From Richelia sp. SL_2_1 (lineage in GTDB: Bacteria; Cyanobacteriota; Cyanobacteriia; Cyanobacteriales; Nostocaceae): a stretch of DNA of 64,000 bases. The notes beneath the pieces are model-generated. The model saw only the letters and a list, made by a program, of their open reading frames with translations. It did not search any database and was not told where the DNA came from. Both the position numbers and the translations under genes were made by a program. The stretch lies in contig JAAUSO010000016.1 in NCBI GenBank assembly GCA_012033205.1, forward strand, positions 1-64,000, read 5' to 3'. The first letter of the stretch is position 1. Every line of letters starts with the position of its first letter. Positions 2,219 through 62,003 of this stretch are shown here, one piece after another.

Positions 2219-3001
2219 ATGCAAAGATACTTAAAAGTTATTAAATTATTTTGGAGTGCTGCTATAGCTGCTGAAATGGAGTATCGGGTTAATTTTGTAA
2301 TTGCAACTCTCAGCAGTGTGGGAAACCTTGCAGGAAGCTTGTTCAGTTTGTTTTTGTTTTACCGTACTGGCTATACTTTCTCTGGATGGCAATGGGAAGC
2401 TGCTTTGATTGTCGTGGGGATTTACACTTTATTGCAAGGTTTTGCAGAAACTTTTCTCGCTCCTAATTTAAACCGTATTGTGCGTCATGTACAAGAAGGA
2501 ACTCTGGATTTTGTGCTGTTAAAACCTATCCACAGTCAATTTTGGCTTTCTTCTCACAGTATTTCACCTTGGGGAATCTCTGATTTAATTTTCGGCAGTA
2601 TTATCATTATTTACGCGGGTACTCGTCTCGGTTTGGGAATCGGTGATTATCTTGCGAGTATTCCAGCGCTGTTTTTTAGTGTGATAATTCTTTATAGCTT
2701 GTGGTTTATGCTGGGAGCTACGAGTATTTGGTTTGTCAAAATATACAATGTTACTGAAGTATTGCGGGGATTGATTGAAGCTGGGAGATATCCAATGGTG
2801 GCTTATCCTGCGGGTTTTCGTTTGTTTTTTACGTTTGTAGTTCCGGTGGCTTTTTTAACTACTGTTCCTGCGGAAGCGATGCTTGGTAGAAGTCAAGTTG
2901 TTTGGGTGATAGGTGCGGGGATGTTAGCTTTGGGATTGTTTTTTGTTTCTTCGAGGTTTTGGCGGTTTGCTTTGAGGTTTTATACTAGTGCTTCGAGTTA
3001 G
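2219..3001 (+). CDS. ABC-2 type transporter permease
   Basis: A 260-aa integral membrane protein with about six hydrophobic segments. The opening pattern (VIKLFWSAAIAAEMEYR, then a membrane helix) and the cytoplasmic RIVRHVQEGTLDFVLLKPI segment mark the ABC-2 permease subfamily (DUF990-like), which pairs with a second permease and an ATPase of the drug/polysaccharide exporter type. No ATPase partner is next to it. The gene is divergent from the ExoD-like gene, with about 80 bases between the preferred starts. The substrate cannot be told. Confidence 0.82.
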   Translation: MQRYLKVIKLFWSAAIAAEMEYRVNFVIATLSSVGNLAGSLFSLFLFYRTGYTFSGWQWEAALIVVGIYTLLQGFAETFLAPNLNRIVRHVQEGTLDFVLLKPIHSQFWLSSHSISPWGISDLIFGSIIIIYAGTRLGLGIGDYLASIPALFFSVIILYSLWFMLGATSIWFVKIYNVTEVLRGLIEAGRYPMVAYPAGFRLFFTFVVPVAFLTTVPAEAMLGRSQVVWVIGAGMLALGLFFVSSRFWRFALRFYTSASS

Positions 3002-3015
3002 AGTGTGGGAATAAG

Positions 3016-3066
3016 ATGTTTTTAAACGCAGAGGGGCGCAAAGGTTAACGCGGAGGTACGCGGAGT
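3016..3066 (+). repeat. GCGCAAAGG/ACGCGGAG dispersed repeat
   Basis: Begins ATGTTTTTAAACGCAGAGG and continues with GCGCAAAGGTTAACGCGGAG. The same unit forms the first codons of the binding-protein gene at 48877 on the opposite strand, and a third copy is at 12167. Confidence 0.7.
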
Positions 3067-3231
3067 TTTGGGTTGAGAGATATCGTAAGTTGATTATTGG
3101 TTTAGTGTGACATCAGATACATAAATGTTCTCGTCAACAGTTAGATAAAAATGAAATAACAGAGTTTTTAAATTATCTTAAATCTTTACCTAGTAGTTGA
3201 AATAAATGATTTCTATACTGAAGCAATTAGA

Positions 3232-3383
3232 AATAAAACTATTACTAACATAAAAATGTCATATTTTTAGTCCATTTTAATGGAGTTATGTTATTAGACT
3301 GGGACTTGCAGTCCTAGGCGGGTAAGAATTAAGTCAAACAATTAGTAATTATTTTAAGGATAGGTATTTATGGTGCAAGATGT
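3232..3383 (+). repeat. 150-bp dispersed repeat, copy A
   Basis: Matches, in reverse orientation, 24320-24482. Shared blocks include ATATTTTTAGTCCATTT, AGACTGGGACTTGCAGTC, AGGCGGG, AAGTCAAACAATT and GTAATTATTTTAA in the same order. The inner segment GACTGGGACTTGCAGTC can fold back. It has no coding capacity, so it is MITE-like. Confidence 0.75.
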
Positions 3384-3403
3384 AAATTAAGGAATTTTCA
3401 ATA

Positions 3404-4726
3404 TCACCTAATAATAGCTCTTTCTTTAATTTTTAGATCAATATAATTAAACAGTGGAACAAAATACAGATAAAATGCAAAGGGAATAAATCCTGAATCT
3501 GTCATCAAAACGGTTGCCGGAACTAACCCAGCAATATTCCAAGGAATTAAGGGAGAAAGTACAACTACAGAATTTTCTAAATCCACTGCAAGCTGGTAAT
3601 TATCTATTTTATTTTCTTGATAATTATCTCTAACTAATTCTTCAGTTAAAAGAATTGCAATTGTTTGAGTACAACCAAATGCTGCTGAAGCTATACCGAC
3701 AAGATTTGTCCCTAAAAATAAATTAGACCTAGATTTCAGTTTTTTGAGATATATTTCTACAGATTCTAATATTTTAGTTCCGCTGAAAAGACCAGCAAAT
3801 GCTGTAGAGACAATCACAATCAAAGATACTTTAGCCATAGAAATTATACCACCTCCAAGGATAATATTTTTCAAGGTACTATCTTCTGATAAGTTGAAGC
3901 CTAGAAGCATATATCGAAAAATATCAAAGAAGGAATAGTTTTGAATATATATACTAATAAATAGACCAATAATTATACTTATCAGCATCGATATTTTGAT
4001 TTCTATCCGCAACCAAGCAAGTAATAAAATAGCAAAAGCTGGTAAAAGTACAATTGGATTAATGTTAAATAATCGACTAATTTCAGAAGTGATATTTTGC
4101 TGTTCAAATTTTACGGGATTAGCAATAGAAAGCAGTAAATAAACTATAGTAGAAACAACCAAAGGTAGAAAAGTTGTTTTTAACATCCTTCTAATATTTG
4201 TGTGGATTTTGGTTTGGGTAATTATAGAAATTAAATTAGCACTCGAAGACATCGGAGAACAACGATCGCCAAAATAAGCTCCGGCTATAATTGCACCAGC
4301 AATCAGATGAGGATTTACGCTACTCCCGCTTGCCATTATCATTAAAGCAATCCCAATTGTACTTACAGTTCCAAAAGAAGTTCCAATTAATAAGGAGACA
4401 AAAATAGTTAATAAAAAGGCTGACACGATAAAGTATGAAGGATTAATCATTTGAATGCCATAGTAGACAATAGCTGGTACTGTTCCTGCCATCATCCAAA
4501 CTGCTATAACTACTCCAATAAGTAAGAGAATAGATATTACTGAAAAAGATTTTTTACTACCAATCCAAGCTAAAGTAAATAGTTTCTTTAGTTTAAATCC
4601 TCTTTTTACAAGTAAGAAAAATAAAGCAGTTATGGAAGCTAGTAAAGGATAAACAATAAAATATCCCTTAAAAACACTAATTAAAAGTAAAACAAACGAA
4701 CAAAACAAAAATAAGATTAAATCCAT
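3404..4726 (-). CDS. NhaC family Na+/H+ antiporter
   Basis: A 440-aa polytopic protein with about eleven hydrophobic stretches. The segment around GTSFGTVSTIGIALM followed by AGAIIAGAYFGDRCSPMSSS (residues about 115-165) is the hallmark of the NhaC antiporter family. The length is slightly below the usual 450-500 aa. It lies 30 bases downstream of the ATP-grasp gene on the same strand, so the two are probably co-transcribed. NhaC proteins exchange Na+ for H+, but several relatives carry organic acids or amino acids. With an amide-ligase-like partner, transport of the ligase product or substrate is a fair alternative. Confidence 0.85.
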   Translation of the reverse strand: MDLILFLFCSFVLLLISVFKGYFIVYPLLASITALFFLLVKRGFKLKKLFTLAWIGSKKSFSVISILLLIGVVIAVWMMAGTVPAIVYYGIQMINPSYFIVSAFLLTIFVSLLIGTSFGTVSTIGIALMIMASGSSVNPHLIAGAIIAGAYFGDRCSPMSSSANLISIITQTKIHTNIRRMLKTTFLPLVVSTIVYLLLSIANPVKFEQQNITSEISRLFNINPIVLLPAFAILLLAWLRIEIKISMLISIIIGLFISIYIQNYSFFDIFRYMLLGFNLSEDSTLKNIILGGGIISMAKVSLIVIVSTAFAGLFSGTKILESVEIYLKKLKSRSNLFLGTNLVGIASAAFGCTQTIAILLTEELVRDNYQENKIDNYQLAVDLENSVVVLSPLIPWNIAGLVPATVLMTDSGFIPFAFYLYFVPLFNYIDLKIKERAIIR

Positions 4727-4756
4727 TTAAGTGTTTCCCTAGATAAATTCTATTTT

Positions 4757-5944
4757 CTATTCCCTAATCTTCAAAAAACTGTCAAAATCAAGTTCAAGAT
4801 ATGCAAGCACGTCTTCAACTTTATCTGCGACAATATGAGCTACTCCAAAAAAAGGAGTTATTTCCGGATTACTGGGAAGATAATTTAATAATTTATTCCC
4901 GAAGGTATTGCAGAAAGATTGCTCATCAAACCAGTGTTTTTCAGATTCATATTTTGGTGGTAAGCTAGCAAGAATAAATGCATAAACTTGAGAATAATTT
5001 GAATTACTTAATAAAGAATCCCAGTCGGGTGATTCATCTGCAAAAAACAAATCGTAGGGATTAAAACCAAAAGCATATTCTGTAATGTCGGGGAGAGCAA
5101 CTTGTCCAAAACGCAACGGATTTAATTCAATAGGGAAAAGATTACCGTTACTAAATTGAAACTCAAAATGAAACGGAAAGCGACGCATTTCCAGCTTATT
5201 TCCAATATGTTGCAATACCTGTATTGTCGGTTCTATTGTTTGAGCAACTACTTGTTTTGATGTATAATACACCGTGTCACTTACATCCGAATTTGATGCG
5301 AAAGGATGCTGATAAATGCCAGTTATTACTGTTTTTCCGTTAGCATCCCAAAAACCATCGCAAGCAAATTCATCTCCATCAATGAATTCTTCTACAAGAA
5401 AAGAGGAGTCATTTAACATTGCCGGATTCATGTGTTCTTTAGCTATATCGATATCTTTAAGAACCGAATCAACTGCTTTTAGCCACTCTTTTTGTCCGTG
5501 TATGATGTGAATACCGATAGAAGCTGTTCCCAAACAGGGCTTAAGTACTACTGTTTCAACTTCCTGGGGAAACCGAAAATCTTGCAGAGCTTCTCTTGTA
5601 AGTTCTACATAAAATAAGTCTGGATATAACTCTTTAACTAACTTGCGAAAAGCCGCTTTATTTTTAAAAGTATTAACTTGATTTAAGCGTTGCTGGGGAA
5701 GATTTTCAAGAATAAAGGAGAGACTTGCTTCCCAGTTGATAATTACTACTGCGTTTTTATCTTGAATCGAAGATGCTGCTTGGGTATCCGTTAAAATGTT
5801 GATTGTTTCTGGTAGGGTAGGTGTTGGTGGTTGAATGTATGTGGGAATATTCCACTGTTGGATTGCACGTAGTAATATGGGAGAATGAACAGGTCCGGAA
5901 ATAAAGCAATAGTTTGAACCTGCTGGTTTGATGTCTTCATTCAT
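4757..5944 (-). CDS. ATP-grasp domain protein
   Basis: A 395-aa ATP-grasp enzyme. The ATP-binding lysine motif VVLKPCLGTASIGI is at residues 132-145, the acidic loop EEFIDGDEFACDG at 185-197, and the Mg-binding IELNPLRFG at about 272-280. The family makes carboxylate-amine (peptide, amide) bonds through an acyl-phosphate. The N-terminal third (pre-ATP-grasp) is unlike standard D-Ala-D-Ala ligases and I cannot name the substrate. It lies upstream of the NhaC-like gene in an apparent two-gene operon, which suggests that a small amino-acid conjugate is made and moved. Confidence 0.8.
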   Translation of the reverse strand: MNEDIKPAGSNYCFISGPVHSPILLRAIQQWNIPTYIQPPTPTLPETINILTDTQAASSIQDKNAVVIINWEASLSFILENLPQQRLNQVNTFKNKAAFRKLVKELYPDLFYVELTREALQDFRFPQEVETVVLKPCLGTASIGIHIIHGQKEWLKAVDSVLKDIDIAKEHMNPAMLNDSSFLVEEFIDGDEFACDGFWDANGKTVITGIYQHPFASNSDVSDTVYYTSKQVVAQTIEPTIQVLQHIGNKLEMRRFPFHFEFQFSNGNLFPIELNPLRFGQVALPDITEYAFGFNPYDLFFADESPDWDSLLSNSNYSQVYAFILASLPPKYESEKHWFDEQSFCNTFGNKLLNYLPSNPEITPFFGVAHIVADKVEDVLAYLELDFDSFLKIRE

Positions 5945-44249: not shown

Positions 44250-45683
44250 TTATTGAATTTCGTATCTCGTAATAATTGTTACTCCTCTTCTGCCATTAGA
44301 ACTAGGTTTGAGTTTCCATTTACGGGCTAAACTCAAATGGTAATTGTCTAATCTGCTGTTTCCGCTACCACTAACCAAGTCCACATTAATCACATTACCT
44401 TGAGCATCAGTATCGACAGATACCGTTACGTTACCTTCTATTTCATTTGCTTTTGCCCAAGACGGATAGCTTGTATTACATCGCCGACAGGCAGCACGTC
44501 CGTCGCCATCACCAACTAAATCACCCGTTCCTTTACCTAATCCATTTCCATTATTAGTATCATTAGTACTGGGTGTAGTTGCAACTTCATTACCTCCAGT
44601 AATAGGTCGTTTTCTTCTAGGAGCATTATCGCTACTTTCGCCGGTAGAAGCATTACTATTACTATTACTAGAAGAATCAGGTAAGGAGGGTGCTGTATCT
44701 CGGTTTTCTCTAATTCCCGAAAGAGTATCTCTTAAGTTTTGATTGTCTTGTTGACTTGGTTGTGTTGGTGGTTCTATGGGAGGATTAACAGGAGCAGGAA
44801 TTTCTCGTGCTGTTCTAGAATCTCGTTGTTGTGCAAGCAAATTTTTTAAATCTTCCGAGGCTTGACTTGGCTGTGTTGGTGGTTCGATGGGAGGTTCAAC
44901 GGGGGCAGGAAGTTCTCGTGCTGTTCTAGAATCTCGTTCTTCTGCGAGTTCACGCAAACGCCTTAAATCTTCCGAAGTTTTCGGTTGCGGTATTGGTGGT
45001 TCTGGAGGAGTAACGACTGTTGTTCTAGAATCTCGTTCTTGTGCAAGTAAACGTCTTAAATCTTCGGAAGCTTGATTTGGCTGTGTTGGTGGTTCAATGG
45101 GAGGTTCAACAGGAGCAGGAATTTCCTGTGGTATTCTAGATTCCGGCTCCGGTTGTGTAGGAATATTATTCTCAGGGATTGGTTGTGGATTTTGTTCTGG
45201 AATAACTGGTGATAATGGTTCTTTGAATGGTTCAAAAGGGATTCGTTTTGGTTTCGGAAGGGGTTCTGTTACGGATGGTGCTTCGGGAGTAATTCTGGGT
45301 TGTGTCGGTATAGGTTCAGGTAAAGAAGTTGGACTTCCACCGCTAATTTGAGATTCGGGGTTAGGAATTTCTAAATCCGGTTCAATTTTAGTTATATCGG
45401 GAACAGGAGGCTTTATTTCTGGCTCTTTTGGGATTTTTTCTAATTTAGGCTCGATTTTTTGCGGTTCTGGTTTTGGTTTTATTTCTTCTATAGGAATATC
45501 AAGAAGAGTTATTTCAACTGGTTCCTCCTCAACTTGGGGAATTCTCTTTAACAGCCTGCCAATACCCGAAGCTAACAACACAATATGAAATAGTAGCGAG
45601 CCGGCTAAACTACACGCTAAAAAAATTCGTAGAGCTTTTAATTCTCTCTCTCGCTGTTGTAGCACTGTATTTGCAAAGCTCAT
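44250..45683 (-). CDS. tonB: TonB family energy transducer
   Basis: A 477-aa TonB protein. One membrane helix lies at about 17-40, followed by a very long Pro/Glu-rich spacer and a TonB C-terminal domain (about 400-477: YPSWAKANEIEGNVTVSVDTDAQGNV and ARKWKLKPSS). The spacer has four related blocks at about 188-221, 222-254, 258-291 and 295-329, with the core PPIEPPTQP..ASEDLRRLLAQ and ERDSRT. A CRRC pair sits just before the C-terminal domain. With ExbB and ExbD (divergent, 420 bases away) it powers the TonB receptors of this region. Confidence 0.9.
   Translation of the reverse strand: MSFANTVLQQRERELKALRIFLACSLAGSLLFHIVLLASGIGRLLKRIPQVEEEPVEITLLDIPIEEIKPKPEPQKIEPKLEKIPKEPEIKPPVPDITKIEPDLEIPNPESQISGGSPTSLPEPIPTQPRITPEAPSVTEPLPKPKRIPFEPFKEPLSPVIPEQNPQPIPENNIPTQPEPESRIPQEIPAPVEPPIEPPTQPNQASEDLRRLLAQERDSRTTVVTPPEPPIPQPKTSEDLRRLRELAEERDSRTARELPAPVEPPIEPPTQPSQASEDLKNLLAQQRDSRTAREIPAPVNPPIEPPTQPSQQDNQNLRDTLSGIRENRDTAPSLPDSSSNSNSNASTGESSDNAPRRKRPITGGNEVATTPSTNDTNNGNGLGKGTGDLVGDGDGRAACRRCNTSYPSWAKANEIEGNVTVSVDTDAQGNVINVDLVSGSGNSRLDNYHLSLARKWKLKPSSNGRRGVTIITRYEIQ
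44696..45125 (-). repeat. Four in-gene repeats in the TonB spacer
   Basis: Each unit is about 33-40 codons; both the protein and DNA copies are visible (GGTTGTGTTGGTGGTTC and CTAGAATCTCGTTCTTGTGC type blocks recur). Copy number could vary between strains and change how far TonB reaches. Confidence 0.8.
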
Positions 45684-47878: not shown

Positions 47879-48877
47879 TTATAGTGGTAAATATTTGAAC
47901 AGATCATCTAAAACTAGATTTGCACCAATCATTCCCCAGGAACTAATCCAGGTATCGCTAGAAACTTTATAAACCCGCTCTTCCCGTACAGCTTCTAATT
48001 TCGACCGCAACGGGTGATTGGTAAATTGTTTCAACTTGGATGGATTATGTTCTCCTAGAATCAAAAAAATTACATCACCTTCCAATTGTGGAATTAGTTC
48101 TAAGGAAATATTTTCGCTATTTTTATCTTTATCTTGATAGTTCGGACGAGGTAAGCCAATTTCTTTAATAATTGAACCAGCAAAAGAATCATTCATGTAA
48201 ATACGAGTATAGTTATTCCAAAAATTCACCAAAGATACTTGAGTTTCAGAAAGGTTATTACCCATTTTTTGACGTAAAGTATTTATCCTTTGCTCGTAAG
48301 AAAGCAGCAATTTTTCTGCTTTTTCCGTTTCACCTAGTGCTTGGGCAAATTTTGTTAGCCATTCTTTCCAACTCTTATCTCCATCAGCCAAAACTGTTGG
48401 TGCAATTTGAGATAACTGCTGATATAAATCGGCATCCCAATTAAGTCCTAAAATTAAATCGGGTTTAAGATATAAAATTTTTTCTAAATTGGCACTACCA
48501 TTAACTCCAACTTTCTGGATTTCTTCAGTCTTTGATTGCAGATAATTCGGATATTGATCGTAGAGTAAGGTGGTGGCTGCAATTGGTTTTATTCCTAAAG
48601 CCAAAACATGATCTAATCCACCTAAGACAACTACTCGTTTGGGATTTAGTGGTACTTTAGTTTCACCCATAGCGTGTTTCACAACTCGCGTTTGGGAAGT
48701 TGTATTCTGAGTATTTGAACTGAAATTTCCAGTAGTATTTATTCCACAGCCGATGACAATTAAAGCTGTGAGGATACTAAATAAAAATAACTTAATTTGA
48801 CGTGAATCAAAAATGTAAGTAAATAAACTCCGCGTGACTCCGCGTTTACCTTTGCGTCCCTTTGCGTTAAAAAACAT
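47879..48877 (-). CDS. Fe-siderophore ABC transporter binding protein, repeat-derived N-terminus
   Basis: A 332-aa FecB/BtuF-type binding protein with a lipoprotein signal (LTALIVIGC). Family blocks are KRVVVLGGLDHVLALGIKP, KILYLKPDLILGL and SDTWISSWGMIGANLVLDDL. The first 18 codons (MFFNAKGRKGKRGVTRS) are read from the dispersed repeat also found at 3016 and 12167, so the repeat supplies the only ATG; no later in-frame start precedes the signal helix. It should bind a ferric siderophore in the periplasm. Its permease partner next door is truncated. Confidence 0.85.
   Translation of the reverse strand: MFFNAKGRKGKRGVTRSLFTYIFDSRQIKLFLFSILTALIVIGCGINTTGNFSSNTQNTTSQTRVVKHAMGETKVPLNPKRVVVLGGLDHVLALGIKPIAATTLLYDQYPNYLQSKTEEIQKVGVNGSANLEKILYLKPDLILGLNWDADLYQQLSQIAPTVLADGDKSWKEWLTKFAQALGETEKAEKLLLSYEQRINTLRQKMGNNLSETQVSLVNFWNNYTRIYMNDSFAGSIIKEIGLPRPNYQDKDKNSENISLELIPQLEGDVIFLILGEHNPSKLKQFTNHPLRSKLEAVREERVYKVSSDTWISSWGMIGANLVLDDLFKYLPL
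48800..48877 (-). repeat. GCGCAAAGG/ACGCGGAG dispersed repeat inside a gene start
   Basis: Minus-strand sequence ATGTTTTTTAACGCAAAGG, GACGCAAAGGTAAACGCGGA, GTCACGCGGAG matches the copies at 3016 and 12167. Confidence 0.75.
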
Positions 48878-50533: not shown

Positions 50534-51538
50534 TTATGGCGTTTCATTTTTGAGATTTTTATTATTCAATAAATATTTTTCTAAATCATCTAAAATGGCA
50601 TTTGCTGAGAGAATATTACCAAATATCCAGTAACTTGAATCAACAGTATATACTTGGTTATTTTGTACAACATTCAGCTTTTGCCATAAAGCACTATTTT
50701 GGTATTTCTGGAAGTTTTCTTCTGCTTTATAGTCTAATGCTGCAAATAAAATATCTGCATCAAATAAATCTATACGTTCTAAACTTACTGATACATAAGG
50801 ATAGTCTGAAGTAGTATTAATTTGACTTTGTTTTTCTGGAATAGATAGTCCCACTTCTGAAATAACGCTGACGGGAAATGAAAATTTGTTGCGAAATTCT
50901 GGGATTCCTCCGGGTGCATAAAAGCGGCTGACAGTAACTGTTTTTAGATTATCTTTATTATTCAACTTTTTCCGTAATACTTCTATCCGTTGTCGATATT
51001 CATCTAATAATTGTTGTACTTGTTTACTTTTACCTGTGATTTCACCAATACGCACTAAAGCATCTTTCCAACCAGCTTGGACATAATCAATTGCAACTGT
51101 GGGAGCAATATTAGAAAGTGATTTATAATTTTGTTCTACACCAAAAGAAAAACCTAGGATTAAATCTGGTTTTAACTGCACTATTTTTTCTAAATTTGGC
51201 TGAGCTACTTTCCCTAGAGTCGCTATATCTTTGGCTTTGTTGGTAAATTTTTGTCTTTTACTACCTGTTAACGGTGGCTCTGGTGCTGCTACTACTTTTA
51301 AATCCAGTGCTAGTAATATTTCCATCATGTTCTCATCTAAAGCGATGATACGTTGAGGACTAAGAGGAATGCAAGCTTGTCCTAAATCATGCTTCACTAC
51401 TCTACACTCAGATGTAACTGAATTAGTTTTTGAAGTTTGACTTTTTTGAGGTGAATAATTATTGCAACCTGTAACTATGGTAAATGTAATGATTGTTAAT
51501 AAGAATAATTTTATAAGTTTGGATGGTGGTTTTGTCAT
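50534..51538 (-). CDS. Fe-siderophore ABC transporter binding protein
   Basis: A 334-aa FecB-type protein. Lipoprotein signal ends FTIVTGC. Family blocks include RIIALDENMMEILLALDLKV, KIVQLKPDLILGFSFG and a C-terminal VDSSYWIFGNILSANAILDDL. It should deliver a ferric siderophore taken in by the TonB receptor encoded just upstream (200 bases away) to an ABC permease, possibly the FecCD/FecE pair at 60-62 kb. Confidence 0.9.
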   Translation of the reverse strand: MTKPPSKLIKLFLLTIITFTIVTGCNNYSPQKSQTSKTNSVTSECRVVKHDLGQACIPLSPQRIIALDENMMEILLALDLKVVAAPEPPLTGSKRQKFTNKAKDIATLGKVAQPNLEKIVQLKPDLILGFSFGVEQNYKSLSNIAPTVAIDYVQAGWKDALVRIGEITGKSKQVQQLLDEYRQRIEVLRKKLNNKDNLKTVTVSRFYAPGGIPEFRNKFSFPVSVISEVGLSIPEKQSQINTTSDYPYVSVSLERIDLFDADILFAALDYKAEENFQKYQNSALWQKLNVVQNNQVYTVDSSYWIFGNILSANAILDDLEKYLLNNKNLKNETP

Positions 51539-51738: not shown

Positions 51739-54561
51739 TTACCAACTCCAACGATAATTTAAAGTAAAAGTTCGACCCCTTGAAGCTATAGCAAAAGCAG
51801 GGTCAAAGCCAAAGTTAAGTTGATTGCTAATATTGAAGTATTGGTTATTCAGCAAGTTCCGAACGCCCAAACTGAGGCTACCATTACCAAGTTTCAAACT
51901 GCTAACTAAATCCATCAGTAAATAACTATCTATACCAATCGGGTCAACTTCTGCATCAAAAGCGCGGTCTCTACTTCCAACATATAATGCTTGCAGACGG
52001 TTACTCCATCCTGGTAAAGTTTCATTTTCCAAATATGCTGTTAGTTTTAAAGGTGAAACTTCATAACCAGTAATGGCAACAAATCCACTTTCTTCTGATT
52101 CTTCCCGTTCTCCTTCACTCCAAGTCAATGTACTTCCCAATTTCCATTTGTCGCTTGGTTGCCAATCTACTGCTAATTCAATTCCATAATTACGCTGGGG
52201 AGAACGTAAAATACTAAAACGACCAGTGTTAAAGTCTTCAAATCGTATTGATGATCCTAAAGCTGAATAACTGTAAAATCCTGCTAGAGAAGCTTGAAAA
52301 TTGTTCCACCGTCCGCGAATTCCCAATTCGTAACTATCAACTTTTTGTGGTGCTGATAGTTCCACATCTTCAACAAAATTGAAACCTTCTTGGGGACTTT
52401 GTACAATACGGGAAATATTCGGAAGCGAAAATCCTTGAGCAAAGTTAGCAAATACACTTACTTCTGGAGTCGCTTTATAAACTACACCAGCATTAAATAC
52501 CACATCATCTAAATTTTTCTCCCCACCTTGAGCAGATGCTCCATTTCTTCCATCCACCCAGTTATCGATTACCGATACATTGAAATTTTCGTAACGAACT
52601 CCACCACTAAGAGATAAACGTTCGCTTGCATCCCACTTTAACTGAGAGAATAAACCTAAGTTTTCGATATCGAAAGGTGCAATCCGAATTGATGAACCAA
52701 TTTTTCGCGCTCTTATACCACCACTATTGTCAAATTCATCAGCATCAAATACATCAAAATTACCTTCGCTCTCTTCATTAGAATAATCTGCACCCCATAG
52801 CAAACTCAAATTATTAGATAAAGATGTATCCAACTGCAAACGTCCACCAAATCTTTCTGCACTCACCACCGAACGACCAATACCTAAGGGACTTTCGGGG
52901 CTAAATATACGGTTATCGAAAAGACTAGAAGCTGTTTTTGTTTGACGGTAATAAGCTTGTGCTTTGAAGGAGCTGTTGAGAATATCGTTGTGACTGTAGT
53001 CGAGACTAATTACAGTTCCTCGGTTAAAAGGGTCGGCAGAATCAATAAAATCAATTGGTGTATCTAGAAAACGTGCTTTTTGGATATCTTCTCCAGGAGT
53101 CTCATCTAACTGTCCCTCTTGACTTTGAGAATCATTAAAATGGTTTGCACTAATTTGCAATCGCTGTTGCGAACCTAAATCAAAACCTAGCTTACCAAAA
53201 ACGTTGATAGAAGCACTATCTGCTTCCGAGTCAGCAAACAAAGGAATGCGATCGCCTTCTGCATCAAATGGAGTTCCAAAGCTATCACGGGTCAAAGAAG
53301 CAACAAAATCAACATCACCTTGCTTACCAGAAATCCCGTAGTTAATAAAGTTGCCAAAGCTACCAGATTTGAAGTTACCAACAGAACGTACTCCAATTTC
53401 TGCTTCTGATAAAACCCTATCTTGGTTTGGCCTACGAGTGATAATATTAATTACCCCACCTGCGGCTCCATCACCATAAGTAGCACTTGGTCCCCTAATT
53501 ACTTCTATTCGCTCAATTGCCGCAGTATCAATCCGACGTAAATTTGCAACTGAAGTATCATTATCGATATTCGAGGTAATTGGTACCCCATCTACCAATA
53601 CTAAAGGTGGTCTTCCTCGCAAAGTCTGAGTAAAACTTTGTTGTGATTCAGAACTTGGACCTAAACCAGGAACTGTATTAGCAAGTATCGATGTTAGATC
53701 GCGATTAACAGTAGTTTGCTCCTCAATTTGTTCGCGGGTTATTACCGTCACCGAACGTGGTACATTTTGAACATCTTCTTCAGTACGTGTCGCACTCACT
53801 ATCAATTCAATTGGCTTATCATTATCTGTTGTTGGTTGTGCTGGTTTTTTTGATGGAGTTTCACTTGTAGTAGGCTTCTCTTCTTCTGGTTTTGGTGTTG
53901 GGGTTTGTGCGGTAGAAGCAGTAGGTGCTAACCCAAAAATCAAACCTTCTCCACTATCAAATAATTCAATTTTTGGTAATCCTGTTTCACCCTTGACTGC
54001 AATCCTGACGGTATTCGCATTCAAATTAGTTACTCTAATTTCAGTAATTCCCTCTAGTGGTTTTTCTTGAGTAAATTTAAACGCATCTCCGGTGGCTTGT
54101 TGCAGTTGAGCATTAGGAATATCGGCAATAAAATCATTACCACTGCTGCGATTTACTACCTGTAGCTGTCTTGCTTGAGGTGTCTGTAAGATTATTTCTA
54201 AGCCTTTATCTGTAGAATTCGTCTTAACTCCGGTAATTGGTACAATACTCACTTGAGAAGGAGTTGGAGTTTGCACCAACATTTGAGCGCTAGTTGCAGG
54301 AAGTTCGATTTCGCTAAGTTGGAGAATATTTTTACCTGTTTCACCCAACTTTATCCTTTTTTCCGAACTTGCTCTTGGCAATTGGAAATTTCGGCGTATC
54401 CGAGAACCCAAAGATTTATGATCTGTAACAGTAATCTTTTTACGTACTCCAGATTTACTGATTCTATCTTCTTGTAATTCTTCACTTTTCGCAGGAGTAG
54501 CAATTAGAAAAACAATCGCACTTGTCAGCAGCAGGCTTTGAAACAATTTATCTGACTTCAT
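51739..54561 (-). CDS. TonB-dependent siderophore receptor with N-terminal AMIN domain
   Basis: A 940-aa outer-membrane receptor. Signal peptide (about 1-26), an AMIN domain at about 104-212, a Pro/Thr-rich linker, the TonB box IELIVSATR (251-259), the plug (VTVITREQIEEQ, RIEVIRGPSATYGDGAAGGVINIITRRP) and a 22-strand barrel ending in a C-terminal aromatic residue (YRWSW). AMIN-receptor fusions are typical of cyanobacteria; AMIN domains bind cell-wall polymer. The plug and barrel fit catecholate/hydroxamate siderophore receptors. A PchR-like regulator gene is 180 bases upstream. Confidence 0.92.
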   Translation of the reverse strand: MKSDKLFQSLLLTSAIVFLIATPAKSEELQEDRISKSGVRKKITVTDHKSLGSRIRRNFQLPRASSEKRIKLGETGKNILQLSEIELPATSAQMLVQTPTPSQVSIVPITGVKTNSTDKGLEIILQTPQARQLQVVNRSSGNDFIADIPNAQLQQATGDAFKFTQEKPLEGITEIRVTNLNANTVRIAVKGETGLPKIELFDSGEGLIFGLAPTASTAQTPTPKPEEEKPTTSETPSKKPAQPTTDNDKPIELIVSATRTEEDVQNVPRSVTVITREQIEEQTTVNRDLTSILANTVPGLGPSSESQQSFTQTLRGRPPLVLVDGVPITSNIDNDTSVANLRRIDTAAIERIEVIRGPSATYGDGAAGGVINIITRRPNQDRVLSEAEIGVRSVGNFKSGSFGNFINYGISGKQGDVDFVASLTRDSFGTPFDAEGDRIPLFADSEADSASINVFGKLGFDLGSQQRLQISANHFNDSQSQEGQLDETPGEDIQKARFLDTPIDFIDSADPFNRGTVISLDYSHNDILNSSFKAQAYYRQTKTASSLFDNRIFSPESPLGIGRSVVSAERFGGRLQLDTSLSNNLSLLWGADYSNEESEGNFDVFDADEFDNSGGIRARKIGSSIRIAPFDIENLGLFSQLKWDASERLSLSGGVRYENFNVSVIDNWVDGRNGASAQGGEKNLDDVVFNAGVVYKATPEVSVFANFAQGFSLPNISRIVQSPQEGFNFVEDVELSAPQKVDSYELGIRGRWNNFQASLAGFYSYSALGSSIRFEDFNTGRFSILRSPQRNYGIELAVDWQPSDKWKLGSTLTWSEGEREESEESGFVAITGYEVSPLKLTAYLENETLPGWSNRLQALYVGSRDRAFDAEVDPIGIDSYLLMDLVSSLKLGNGSLSLGVRNLLNNQYFNISNQLNFGFDPAFAIASRGRTFTLNYRWSW

Positions 54562-56185: not shown

Positions 56186-56932
56186 ATGTTGAAATCGCTA
56201 CAATCGAAGTATCATGCCCTTGTAAGTGGATCTATTATCGCTGCGATCGCGCTTCTGGCTGGATGTAATTCTACTCCTAGTGAGACAATAAGTGGTGACA
56301 CAAAAGCACCTGAAACCACTGCTCAACCTGTTGCAAGTGAGGAAAAAATCAGTGAGGGAGAAAAAGCCAATGCAGATTTTCAGGATAAACTTAGTGGTCA
56401 AGCCCTTCTGAATGCTTTAAAACAAGGGGGTCATGTAATTTATTTTCGCCATGCCCAAACTGAAAAAGACTATGCTGACCAAGTAAAAGCAGTGATGGGT
56501 GATTGTTCAACTCAACGGATGCTAAGTGAAGCGGGATGGAAACAAGCTAAAGCTATTGGGGAAGGGTTTCGCAAGTATACCATTCCTTTTGATAAAGTGA
56601 TTTCCAGTCAGTATTGTCGGGCTTGGCAGACCGCAGACTTAGCTTTTGGTAAATACGAGAAAAATGCTGACCTCAACTTTCCCAAAGCAGAAGACTATAC
56701 ACCTGAACAAACGGCTCAGATGAAAGCTCAGTTAACACCGATGTTAACGGCTGTACCGGCAAAAGCGACTAATACTGTAATTGTCGGTCATGATGACTTG
56801 TTTGAAGCCGCAACAGGGATTTATCCAGATCCACAGGGTATGGCTTATGTTGTGAAGCCTGATGGTAAAGGTGCTTTCGAGTTGATTGCCAATATGCTTC
56901 CTGAAGAATGGGTAAAATTAGCAGATAAATAA
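56186..56932 (+). CDS. Histidine phosphatase family lipoprotein
   Basis: A 248-aa protein. Lipobox ALLAGC with Cys27, then an Ala/Glu-rich linker. The histidine phosphatase core starts with HVIYFRHAQTEKD (83-95), holding the RH of the catalytic motif (Arg88, His89; the usual RHG reads RHA), and has the second catalytic His in VIVGHDDLFEAA. A phosphohistidine mechanism is expected, acting outside the plasma membrane on an unknown phosphate ester. It stands alone between iron genes. Confidence 0.85.
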   Translation: MLKSLQSKYHALVSGSIIAAIALLAGCNSTPSETISGDTKAPETTAQPVASEEKISEGEKANADFQDKLSGQALLNALKQGGHVIYFRHAQTEKDYADQVKAVMGDCSTQRMLSEAGWKQAKAIGEGFRKYTIPFDKVISSQYCRAWQTADLAFGKYEKNADLNFPKAEDYTPEQTAQMKAQLTPMLTAVPAKATNTVIVGHDDLFEAATGIYPDPQGMAYVVKPDGKGAFELIANMLPEEWVKLADK

Positions 56933-57017
56933 ATACCAAATACGCCATCCCGTTAGGGGAAGTGAGCTACGATGAGATTAACCTACAATCATCACTTTGA
57001 CAAGCGAGCATGACCAC

Positions 57018-57080
57018 AGAAGTCGGGTTGTTAGGATAAGTCTCATAGCATCAGACAAACCTGATAAAAACCCGACTTTT
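57018..57080. repeat. Palindromic interspersed element, copy 9
   Basis: Arms slightly diverged (GGGTTGTT, CCCGACTTTT). Preceded at 56956 by GGGGAAGTGAGCTACGA, the same module that precedes copy 6. Confidence 0.75.
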
Positions 57081-57185
57081 CACCAATCGGATGCGGCTAT
57101 TAGACATTTCCGAAAAAGAATGTAGAGACGCTCATTGTATCGCCTCTCTACAAGGATTTCGATTGACGCATATTTAATTTCCGAA

Positions 57186-58388
57186 TTATTCTAGTATTTT
57201 CTTCAACTGGTTACAAGTTTCTTCGATTTTATCAATACTACCAGGATTTACCAGTCCATAATAATCAAAAACATAAACTTGTTCCTTTTGAGCAGCTTTA
57301 AGTTTATTCCAGAAATTCTTTGATTTTAATTGTGTAATTACTCCTGCATTAGCAGGGTCTACTACTAATAATATTTCTGGATTTTGTTGCACTATTTTTT
57401 CTTCGGAAAGTGTGACATAACCTTGTCCTATGGATTCTCCCTGTAAATCCGCTGTTAAATTATTCACATTAAATTTTGACAGTAAATCTCCAGTCCAACT
57501 ATTTTTATTAGGAGATAAAACTGGTTGACTGCTAACTAATACAAGAAGCGAATTATTACTTTTTGGAATGTCTTTCAAAAATGAATCGTATTTTTCTAAT
57601 AAAGTTGTTGGGTCTGTATTTGTAGCTTCAGCTAGTTCTTGTGTATGTTTAATTAAAGCATCCCAACTGTTTGTTTCACTGGCTAAAGTTGTAATTCCTA
57701 AATCTTTTAATTTTTTAAATGTTTGGTCATGAAATCCAACCGCACCAATCACTAAATCAGGTTTAAGAGCAACTATTTTTTCGATGTTTGGAGGTGTTCT
57801 ACCTTCACTAACTGCTGGTAGTTTTTCAAAACGTTTATCTTTTCTGAGCAAACTACTACCGGGAATTCCAACTAGTTTTGTAGCATCAAGTCGGTGAATA
57901 ATATCAGCAGATAATGATGTTAAAGCAACAACTCTTTTAGCATTTTCAATTTCAGGTTTGGAGACTTGATTTTCTTGAATTTGAGTTACATTAGCTGAAA
58001 ATTCTGACCTATTTTCAGTAGTTGTAGAATTACAAGCTATTAAAAGGAAGTTTACTAACTGTCTATCGACATCCTCTGATTGAATTACTGTAATGTTTCC
58101 GGGAGTATCTTTGACAGGACGTTCACTCCTCGTTCCTGTCACCGTAATATCAATATCAGCTTCTTGATTTTCCGTTTTTTGATCAGATTCCGCTTGTGCC
58201 AAAGTTTTACTTTCTTTGGTTTGTGGTTCCCCAATTAAATCTTGAGCATTAGTACTGAATTGTTCAACTTCCTCTAAATTTTTAATTTCGGGTGATGCAG
58301 ATTCAGCCAGCGTTGCAGGTAAGATTCCTAAATTCAACAATACAAGATTGAAGAGCAATACGTACAAATTTTTGAGATTCATTGTCAT
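57186..58388 (-). CDS. Fusion of a TonB-receptor N-terminus to a haem/siderophore binding protein
   Basis: A 400-aa protein from the ATG at 58388 (numbering here includes one extra upstream codon). Residues 1-30 are a signal peptide; 80-110 read like the TonB box and plug start of a receptor (DITVTGTRSERPVKDTPGNI then TVIQSEDVDRQ). At about residue 112 the sequence changes to a lipobox-like FLLIAC (Cys120) and a complete FecB/BtuF-type binding protein (RVVALTSLSADIIHRLDATK, KIVALKPDLVIGAVGF, VDPANAGVITQL). A deletion appears to have joined a receptor gene to the following binding-protein gene in frame. Whether the product is exported and active is open. Confidence 0.85.
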   Translation of the reverse strand: MTMNLKNLYVLLFNLVLLNLGILPATLAESASPEIKNLEEVEQFSTNAQDLIGEPQTKESKTLAQAESDQKTENQEADIDITVTGTRSERPVKDTPGNITVIQSEDVDRQLVNFLLIACNSTTTENRSEFSANVTQIQENQVSKPEIENAKRVVALTSLSADIIHRLDATKLVGIPGSSLLRKDKRFEKLPAVSEGRTPPNIEKIVALKPDLVIGAVGFHDQTFKKLKDLGITTLASETNSWDALIKHTQELAEATNTDPTTLLEKYDSFLKDIPKSNNSLLVLVSSQPVLSPNKNSWTGDLLSKFNVNNLTADLQGESIGQGYVTLSEEKIVQQNPEILLVVDPANAGVITQLKSKNFWNKLKAAQKEQVYVFDYYGLVNPGSIDKIEETCNQLKKILE

Positions 58389-59289
58389 CAAGACCTAATG
58401 GTAAGAATAGCTACAAACTTTTCAGCCACAGTCACCCGTCATGCTTTCGCTACAACAATCGTTATACTCTCTTCAGGACTTATACAGAAATATTTCCATT
58501 AAGAGAGTGGTGAATATTACTTTAGAGTTATTGAATAGATTTGTCAATAATCTTATAAAGAAAACAGAAGATTTCTCAAAAGTAAAAAAACTAAAAAAAA
58601 ACTTGTAAATTCAGCAACAGCAAACTTACAAGTAAATGGTTTGATTAAGGATTAAGCAGCATCAATAGCGAATCGAGGCTATCTGCAATATGTAAAAATG
58701 CAAATATCCATGATGTTCTTAAATCCTTTGCAAAAGTAAAGGTTAGGTTAATTAAGTGAGAATTATGTGCCGACTGCTGATGTCAACACAGAGTTTGTAA
58801 AAAATATGCCCTGATGTATGAAAATATAATCTAGTTGAAATTTTTTATCAACTATTTTTCTTGTATACTATACTGGTTCATAAGACACACTTCTTGCACC
58901 ATTCTCAACAAAACCCGCTCCGCTCTGTATTCTTGCAGGCTGAGCCTGGGAATTTAAGCATGGAATTCAACCCTGGAAGAGTTACAGTATTATTAATAAT
59001 CTGCAACTAACTTCCAGGGTTGTTAAGCTTTGGTAATAATATTTTTTAGATTGGCTGTAAATAAGCAACAGTTTCTAACCTCTGAAATAAATAATTGATT
59101 GTAATATTCAATACTTACCTCTATTTGTATTCAAGGAAAATAATTGATATTTTTTAGAGTATTATTTTATAATTAGTGATTTAATTACTACAAATTGAGA
59201 ATTATTAGTGATAAATTATTAGAGAAATTGTAAATTAAGATGATGGTTCAACTAATTATTAATATATTTTCTTAATAAGGGGGTATGTT
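58389..59289. other. 900-bp AT-rich region without a recognised gene
   Basis: Contains a hairpin-like repeat AGGCTGAGCCTGGGAATT (58937) and a CCTGGAAG...CTTCCAGG inverted pair (58973-59018). It also carries promoter areas for the fusion gene and the FeoA-like gene. No RNA gene was recognised. Confidence 0.55.
58973..59018. repeat. Inverted repeat AACCCTGGAAG...CTTCCAGGGTT
   Basis: Eleven-base inverted pair around about 24 bases; would form a long hairpin in RNA from either strand. Confidence 0.6.
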
Positions 59290-60031: not shown

Positions 60032-60112
60032 TATAATATTAATATCTTTATATTGCTTACCGCTAAAAGTAACTTGCTAGATATATCAGTAAATATAATA
60101 GAATCAAACAAA

Positions 60113-61123
60113 ATGTACAAAGCTAATCAAAATATAATTAATAGTCGCTTACTTTTAGCTGTTGCAATATTAAGTATTGCCTTAATTTTAACTTTAGCGC
60201 TATCGATATCTCAAGGTGCAGTTGCGATGAGTTTGTCAGATATTTGGCAAGCATTATTACATAAAGGCGATCCTCTCAAACAAACAATTCTGTGGGATTT
60301 GCGAATGCCGCGCATTCTTGCCTCTATGCTAGTAGGTGCAGCTTTAGGGATGTCTGGTGCATTATTACAGGGAATGTTGCGAAATTCACTCGCAGAACCA
60401 TTTATTCTTGGTATTTCTGCGGGTGCGGGATTAGTTGCGATCGCAATGATTGTTTTGCAAATATGGACGGCATGGATTCCTCTTGCAGCATGGTTTGGAG
60501 CTATTTTGACTGCAATTGTAGTTATCTTCCTCGGTCGCGGGCAGGGAGGAATTAGGGTTGAGAAATTGATACTGGGAGGAGTTGCCATTAGTTCGTTATT
60601 AGGTGCGCTTCAAAGTACATTGTTACTTTTAGCTGAGGATGGTAGAGTACAGCAAGCGTTAAATTGGCTAATCGGTAGCTTAAACGGACGCGGTTGGAGT
60701 GAAGTGAAAATGGCTGCTCCCTATATGTTAGTAGCATTAATTGCAGGATGTTTGTTAGCGCGATGGGTAAATGTACTGGCTTTAGGAGACGATTTAGCGG
60801 TAGGTTTGGGAGTTTCCTTGGTACGTAGTCGGATTTTAATTGGTGCAGTAGCTACACTTTTAGCAGCGGGTGCGGTGAGTATCGCTGGATTAATTGGTTT
60901 TGTCGGTTTAGTAGTTCCCCATGGAGTGCGCTTGCTTGTAGGTACTGACTATCGTTTGTGTTTACCACTTTCAGCCTTGGGGGGTGCATGGTTATTAACC
61001 TTTGCAGATTTACTATCTCGTCTGGGAGCAGTCGAGTTACCTGTAGGTGCAGTGACAGCTTTATTGGGTTCACCTCTGTTTATTTGGTTATTGTATCGTG
61101 GTTCGGGAACGATGAACAGTTAA
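60113..61123 (+). CDS. FecCD family Fe/B12 ABC transporter permease
   Basis: A 336-aa permease from the ATG at 60113; the frame is open to a TTG at 60053. About nine or ten membrane helices are visible, with the family segments WDLRMPRILASMLVGAALGMSGALLQGMLRN, ILGGVAISSLLGALQSTLLLLA and GLIGFVGLVVPHGVRLLVG. It would form the channel for ferric siderophore or haem with the ATPase 103 bases downstream. The nearest binding protein is the fused one at 57186. Confidence 0.92.
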   Translation: MYKANQNIINSRLLLAVAILSIALILTLALSISQGAVAMSLSDIWQALLHKGDPLKQTILWDLRMPRILASMLVGAALGMSGALLQGMLRNSLAEPFILGISAGAGLVAIAMIVLQIWTAWIPLAAWFGAILTAIVVIFLGRGQGGIRVEKLILGGVAISSLLGALQSTLLLLAEDGRVQQALNWLIGSLNGRGWSEVKMAAPYMLVALIAGCLLARWVNVLALGDDLAVGLGVSLVRSRILIGAVATLLAAGAVSIAGLIGFVGLVVPHGVRLLVGTDYRLCLPLSALGGAWLLTFADLLSRLGAVELPVGAVTALLGSPLFIWLLYRGSGTMNS

Positions 61124-61226: not shown

Positions 61227-62003
61227 ATGTCACTAAATGTTAATAATCTGACTGGTGGTTATTCTAAAAAAGCAATTGTTCGTAATATAAATTTTGATAT
61301 TGCTCGTGGTGAGTGGTTGAGTTTAGTCGGTGCAAATGGTTCTGGAAAATCAACTTTGCTCAAGCTTATTAGTAGAATACTGATACCACAAAAAGGGAGA
61401 ATATTGTTAGATGGAAAAGCAATTCATCATCAAAGTGCGATAGAAGTAGCGCAAAAAATGGCATTATTACCGCAACAGCAAATCGTTCCTACAGGGTTAA
61501 CTGTTTATCAATTAGTAGGTTTGGGACGTAATCCCCATCAAAATTGGTGGCAATGGGAATTAGATGCTCAAGATAGAGATAAAGTCGAATCAGCAATTGA
61601 TGCTGTTGGAATTGAACAATTTAAAAATCGTCCGGTAGAACGATTATCGGGTGGAGAGCGACAAAGAGCTTTTTTAGCTTTAGCTTTAGCTCAAAATCCC
61701 CAATTTTTATTATTAGATGAACCAACTACATATTTAGATTTACGCTATCAATTACAATTATTAGAATTGCTGAAAAAATTAAATTTACAACAAGAATTAA
61801 CAATTATCACCGTATTGCATGAATTGAATTTAGCAGCTAGATACAGCAATCGTTTAGCAATGCTATTAAACGGACAAATTTGGGTTGATGGAGATACCGA
61901 TACTGTGATGAATCCAGAAAATATTCGACAAGTTTTTGGTTTAGAGACAATCGTGATAGATACTCCTGTTGGTAAGCAAATTTGTGCTTTGAGAGCGATT
62001 TGA
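61227..62003 (+). CDS. Fe/B12 ABC transporter ATP-binding protein
   Basis: A 258-aa ABC ATPase of the FecE/BtuD group. Walker A GANGSGKST (35-43), signature LSGGERQ (140-146), Walker B LLLDEP (161-166), and the switch His in LHELNLAARY near 195. Together with the FecCD permease it would drive uptake through the plasma membrane. Confidence 0.93.
   Translation: MSLNVNNLTGGYSKKAIVRNINFDIARGEWLSLVGANGSGKSTLLKLISRILIPQKGRILLDGKAIHHQSAIEVAQKMALLPQQQIVPTGLTVYQLVGLGRNPHQNWWQWELDAQDRDKVESAIDAVGIEQFKNRPVERLSGGERQRAFLALALAQNPQFLLLDEPTTYLDLRYQLQLLELLKKLNLQQELTIITVLHELNLAARYSNRLAMLLNGQIWVDGDTDTVMNPENIRQVFGLETIVIDTPVGKQICALRAI

Follow-up and report, generated by a model that had tools for sequence, protein, structure and literature searches.

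A single reading frame of 401 residues in the window (the whole stretch of 64,000 nucleotides of Richelia sp. SL_2_1 DNA analysed here) joins the start of a TonB-dependent receptor to a FecB-type binding protein. Comparison with the intact gene pairs of relatives strongly supports an origin by a deletion of about 2.2 kb, which would have fused the neighbouring receptor and binding-protein genes with the frame remaining open. The reading that we favour as a whole, and regard as reasonably probable, is that of a deletion chimera whose product, a soluble binding protein exported by the receptor signal, would serve a FecCD/FecE transporter.

Architecture of the fused gene

The fused frame lies on the minus strand at 57186–58391 and starts at a TTG or at an ATG just after it. 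Residues 1–112 (58056–58391, minus strand) match intact receptors and comprise the signal peptide, a linker, the TonB box and about the first 20 residues of the plug. The motif ITVTGTR at residues 82–88 is presumably the TonB box of this part; in the intact receptor of Rivularia sp. T60_A2020_040 (locus L035) the Pfam plug match begins at residue 93. The earlier note had recognised receptor sequence at residues 82–108. This segment is indeed receptor-derived, but its extent was drawn too short, as the whole N-terminus up to residue 112 belongs to the receptor.

Residues 115–401 (57186–58049, minus strand) form the binding-protein part, in agreement with the boundary of about residue 115 proposed earlier. 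The part carries a residual lipobox, LLIAC, with the lipobox cysteine at residue 120, and exists as a separate gene in L035. Peripla_BP_2 was detected at residues 154–376 with 99.2 bits against a Pfam cut-off of 27.5, and the match is near full length (profile positions 1–232 of 235), which places the part among FecB-type proteins. No further Pfam domain was found in the fused protein at E 0.001. Thus, of the parts of a TonB-dependent receptor, the fusion has the signal peptide and TonB box, by alignment of residues 1–112 with intact receptors, but lacks both plug and β-barrel, which the L035 relative possesses. At the level of NCBIfam, the best match of the binding part is the heme protein IsdE, at 77.7 bits far under the cut-off of 298.65; BtuF (35.9 of 234 bits) and FhuD (22.3 of 252) are also far below theirs. 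A sequence search against solved structures retrieved 11 distinct sequences, binding proteins such as HtsA and a vitamin B12-binding protein.

Intact gene pairs and probable origin by deletion

The two parts of the fusion occur in the same order, as two genes, at five loci of relatives (L035–L039). Identities were calculated over fusion residues 1–114 for the receptors and 112–401 for the separate binding proteins. The N-terminus and binding part are 97% and 94% identical to the genes of Rivularia sp. T60_A2020_040 (L035), and 94% and 92% identical to those of Plectonema cf. radiosum LEGE 06105 (L036); the receptor N-termini of L037–L039 are 70–80% identical. The in-frame fusion described in the earlier note is thus confirmed, as one frame with both parts at least 92% identical to the L035 and L036 genes, a level well outside what chance would give. 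The receptors of L035 and L036 have 777 residues. At L035, the receptor gene (2450–4783) is followed, after a gap of 160 bp, by the binding-protein gene (4944–5873) on the same strand. The same order was found in L036, L037 and L038, and by BLAST in L039. Compared to the fusion, the intact pair differs in being two genes, in having the full plug and barrel (L035) and in a binding protein that has a lipoprotein signal of its own. The upstream region is shared with L035 and L036: the stretch 5′ of the receptor gene (58392–58951, minus strand) is retained in the window and forms a single BLAST segment with the receptor start, at 91% identity to L035 and 94% to L036. The sequence immediately 5′ of the start codon is nearly identical between the fused gene and its relatives.

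BLAST of the window against L035 gave colinear matches on either side of 58050/58049, skipping 2218 bp (L035:2792–5009), and a base-by-base comparison showed a clean change from one arm to the other at this point. The deletion junction is therefore at 58049–58050 (minus strand) and not near 58055, where it had been placed before. Compared to L035, the window lacks receptor residues 115–777 (663 residues), all of the 160-bp spacer and 22 codons at the start of the binding-protein gene as listed, which bears out the loss of the remaining plug and barrel put earlier at over 500 residues. When the skipped DNA was used as query against eight genomes of the genus, matches of 80–100% over about 2.0 kb or more were obtained in five (G185, G186, G188, G189 and G191). 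No match was seen in the window's genome or in G187, and G190 gave just two weak stretches of 35–56 bases. As the same search detects this DNA in five genomes of the genus, its absence from the window's genome appears to be real. In the same five relatives receptor and binding protein are adjacent on one contig, and the deletion joining the two genes that the earlier note had proposed is well borne out by this comparison. Both L035 and L036, which rank first and second in closeness to the window when silent changes are counted, keep the DNA, so that loss in the lineage of the window would be the simplest account.

Relocation of the receptor to another place in the window's genome was rejected, as neither the deleted DNA nor a receptor at the level of TIGR01786 is present there. 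The fusion N-terminus has four weak matches in the rest of this genome (E 0.002 to 0.19), in frames of 732–940 residues. Recombination between repeats was also considered as the cause: words shared by the two sides are at most 6 bases long within 30 bases of the breakpoints (8 within 100) and are out of register. An AAC beside the junction matches both arms by eye (L036 arms), but it does not explain the junction exactly. With one or two bases fewer after the junction, a stop would follow within 3 or 6 residues and end the frame at residue 117 or 120. The downstream side of the fused gene (56186–57180) is rearranged. In the window a histidine-phosphatase gene there is directed opposite to the fused gene; in L036 the histidine-phosphatase gene has the same direction as the binding protein, and at L035 its place is taken by a FecE/FecCD set.

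The receptor of L035 exceeds the NCBIfam cut-offs of both TIGR01786 (429.3 bits, cut-off 323.75) and TIGR01785 (409.7 bits, cut-off 316.85), which are hemoglobin/transferrin/lactoferrin and heme receptor subfamilies. By these matches, the lost receptor belongs to the heme/hemoglobin receptor family. A receptor over the TIGR01786 cut-off is present in five of the eight genomes of the genus and in none of the window's genome, G187 and G190. G187 and G190 also have no binding-protein match at E 1e-20, whereas the window's genome keeps the binding protein. Seven plug-domain matches are left in this genome, indicating that other receptors remain. In Anabaena sp. PCC 7120, heme uptake through the receptors HutA1 and HutA2 has been tested (PMC10792254). 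The likeness to the lost receptor is at the family level, through the heme/hemoglobin NCBIfam families, and hutA2 is, according to the same source, also near ABC transporter genes; the difference from HutA1 and HutA2 is that plug and barrel are gone at the locus in the window.

A second nearby deletion point lies at 58952, where the window lacks about 1.25 kb that L035 and L036 both have and that includes a rhodopsin gene. The bacteriorhodopsin-like gene of this segment (L035:729–1538, minus strand) matches Pfam Bac_rhodopsin with 138.8 bits. No rhodopsin relative was found in the window's genome at E 1e-10; six of the eight genomes of the genus have one somewhere. In G188, two contigs (L065, L068) each carry the same last part of a rhodopsin, in frames of 150 and 146 residues, and in G187 (L066, L069) the rhodopsin matches are two neighbouring pieces separated by a gap. 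These pieces are possibly contig-cut or broken genes.

The binding protein is widespread: it was matched at E 1e-20 in 164 of 217 genomes of the family, the window's own included, and among the matches listed its frames are at most 355 residues long, the window's excepted. At E 1e-6 the N-terminus was matched 15 times, in 14 of the 217 genomes. The window's own match lies in a frame given as 402 residues, the other 14 in frames of 774–905 residues, and no match but the window's has the fused architecture. The fusion is private to the window's genome within the genomes searched, and a conserved normal family, the finding that would have spoken against the account in the earlier note, was rejected on the same counts. 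Since close relatives keep both genes intact, the fusion looks like a private local accident rather than a new protein family. Our literature search found no paper on a receptor/binding-protein fusion of this type within the texts it covered, which is not proof that none is in print. Among the candidate stretches, a Thiobacillaceae contig (L042) matches residues 1–109 at only 28% (E 2e-4).

Predicted product and transporter partner

The signal peptide of the receptor is wholly retained in the fusion, and cleavage is predicted, from a reading by eye, near residue 29 (ATLA followed by ES). The lipoprotein signal of the binding protein is not retained in the same way. Before the lipobox cysteine, the L035 lipoprotein signal reads KTRTLAIFLSFLLIA, compared to SEDVDRQLVNFLLIA in the fusion. 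Over the 18 residues preceding the cysteine, hydropathy averages 0.63 in the fusion against 1.38–1.77 in four relatives. With a G+LPP-like lipoprotein pattern (PROSITE-type), the fusion fails in both the anchored and the unanchored form, whereas the relatives pass in 4 of 4 cases unanchored and in 3 of 4 anchored; the exception, L036, probably fails because the TTG listed as its start lies too far upstream. A signal of its own is not required for membership of the Pfam family. As the positive charges and roughly half of the core of hydrophobic residues have been replaced, hydropathy is low and the pattern fails, the fusion is unlikely to have a second signal for export or lipidation. A functional second export signal was rejected by pattern and hydropathy, and the idea of two export signals in a row, put forward in the earlier note, is not supported: the lipoprotein signal is without its charged region and retains only about half of its core.

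The AlphaFold model, built with 8 sequences, has a mean pLDDT of 57.5, with residues 24–156 below 50. Residues 31–150 are modelled as disordered (block pLDDT 22–31). From residue 241 much of the binding domain is modelled at blocks of 76–96, with two blocks at 53–67; weak parts of the binding domain with pLDDT below 50 are 195–204, 209–224 and 320–326.

Two genes on the plus strand of the window, a FecCD-type permease (60053–61123; Pfam FecCD) and a FecE-type ATPase (61227–62003; Pfam ABC_tran), are the probable partners of the fused protein. A FecCD gene is found on the same side of the receptor as in the window in G185, G186, G188 and G189, and the permease on the far side of the receptor is 92% identical in L037 and 89% in L038. 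Beside the binding protein, ATPases 61–67% identical to that of the window are found in L012, L015, L034 and L040, and permeases 72–76% identical in L012 and L040. Outside the genus, 4 of 26 loci (L011–L034, L040 and L041) have window-type FecCD and/or FecE relatives; the other 22 have neither within the flanks viewed, which were at most 1.5 kb for L011–L034 and 5 kb for L040 and L041. Downstream of the binding protein, L035 and L036 have a different FecCD/FecE set, 39–44% identical to that of the window; a relative of its permease, at 76%, is found on contig C346 of the window's genome, adjoining a second FecCD gene. Because of this different set and of the mostly unaccompanied loci outside the genus, the partner is not certain. 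By gene neighbourhood, the likelier one is the FecCD/FecE pair of the window, which lies about 1.7 kb away from where the fused gene starts. The window also has an iron-uptake cluster with an AMIN-domain TonB-dependent receptor (51739–54561) and a TonB_C match (44268–44474), as well as, at 50636–51415 and 47969–48766, two relatives of the binding protein that are more distant.

Changes on the branches were counted with L036 as outgroup, over 286 codons of the binding part and 111 codons of the receptor part. In the binding part, the branch of the window has 7 silent and 5 replacing changes, and that of L035 has 10 and 8. In the receptor part the numbers are 7 silent and 1 replacing for the window and 2 and 1 for L035. 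The neutral expectation is about 78% replacing changes, or 73% with transitions weighted three times. Replacing changes are fewer than expected, with binomial P of 0.007 for the binding part (0.02 with the transition bias) and 0.0001 for the receptor part (0.0007). Both parts look to have been under constraint for most of the branch, the counts being small and the times before and after the deletion inseparable.

Fate of the chimera and its alternatives

In the reading that we favour, one deletion of about 2.2 kb in the lineage removed most of the plug, the whole barrel, the spacer between the genes and about 22 codons at the start of the binding-protein gene, a loss that the comparison of assemblies shows, and the fused gene keeps the upstream region and signal peptide of the receptor. 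The product would most likely be exported by Sec and cleaved after the receptor signal peptide, as read from the sequence. The mature protein would be soluble in the periplasm and not lipid-anchored, with a disordered extension of about 85 receptor-derived residues. Its intact binding domain would still serve the neighbouring FecCD/FecE transporter, and the substrate would enter via other receptors, since the fused locus no longer has receptor function. The TonB box carried by the tail is probably only a passenger, and function might suffer from the missing lipid anchor.

A different outcome, which we hold to be unlikely, is that the deletion is real and the locus is a decaying remnant, its product non-functional (misfolded, unlipidated, degraded) and stop codons not yet acquired. 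The restriction of the fused frame to a single genome, the broken lipoprotein signal and the second deletion about 900 bp off, which took the rhodopsin gene and points to a changing locus, are all consistent with decay. Against it, the Pfam domain is complete, the branch carries fewer replacements than the neutral expectation and the frame is open across the junction, although the last would occur by chance in one case out of three.

It is highly improbable that the fusion is an artefact, in which the strain, or a mixture, has the intact pair and the two genes were joined by the assembler. The draft genome consists of 359 contigs and has two missing segments within about 900 bp of each other. 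However, the short words shared near the breakpoints, at most 6 bases and out of register, are no repeat that would easily mislead an assembler, and the deleted DNA is on no other contig of the genome; the preserved frame adds weak evidence, given the one-in-three chance.

Least credence is given to a working, TonB-tethered soluble binding protein, whose tail would be bound directly by TonB through its TonB box, altering delivery or titrating TonB: the TonB box and linker are kept, the receptor part has its low count of replacing changes on the window's branch and the window also contains a TonB_C match, but that conservation is possibly older than the deletion, no second genome among the 217 of the family has the fusion, and TonB boxes function in barrel-anchored receptors, where TonB can pull a fixed plug. 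Display of the product with a TonB-box tail that TonB might reach, as the earlier note suggested, is a possibility. To our knowledge, FhuD and BtuF, unlike the fusion, have no receptor-type TonB box. These two proteins are of the same broad kind as the fusion and share with it a possible contact with TonB, which would favour the tether: E. coli TonB is reported to bind both, according to a paper that cites the original studies (PMC3813593, citing Carter 2006 and James 2009).

The locus suggests that one deletion can make a single exported chimera out of a receptor and its neighbouring binding protein, with the widely found binding protein of the uptake route being kept. Provided that the product is made, it would offer a test of the need of such a binding protein for its lipid anchor, and also whether a free periplasmic TonB box is tolerated or used. 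Were the TonB-tethered reading true, the fusion would be a natural experiment in which the TonB system is coupled to a periplasmic binding protein with no barrel in the outer membrane. If no product is made, it is a curiosity of a single genome, and the chimera is of modest interest unless the protein is made and its TonB box used.
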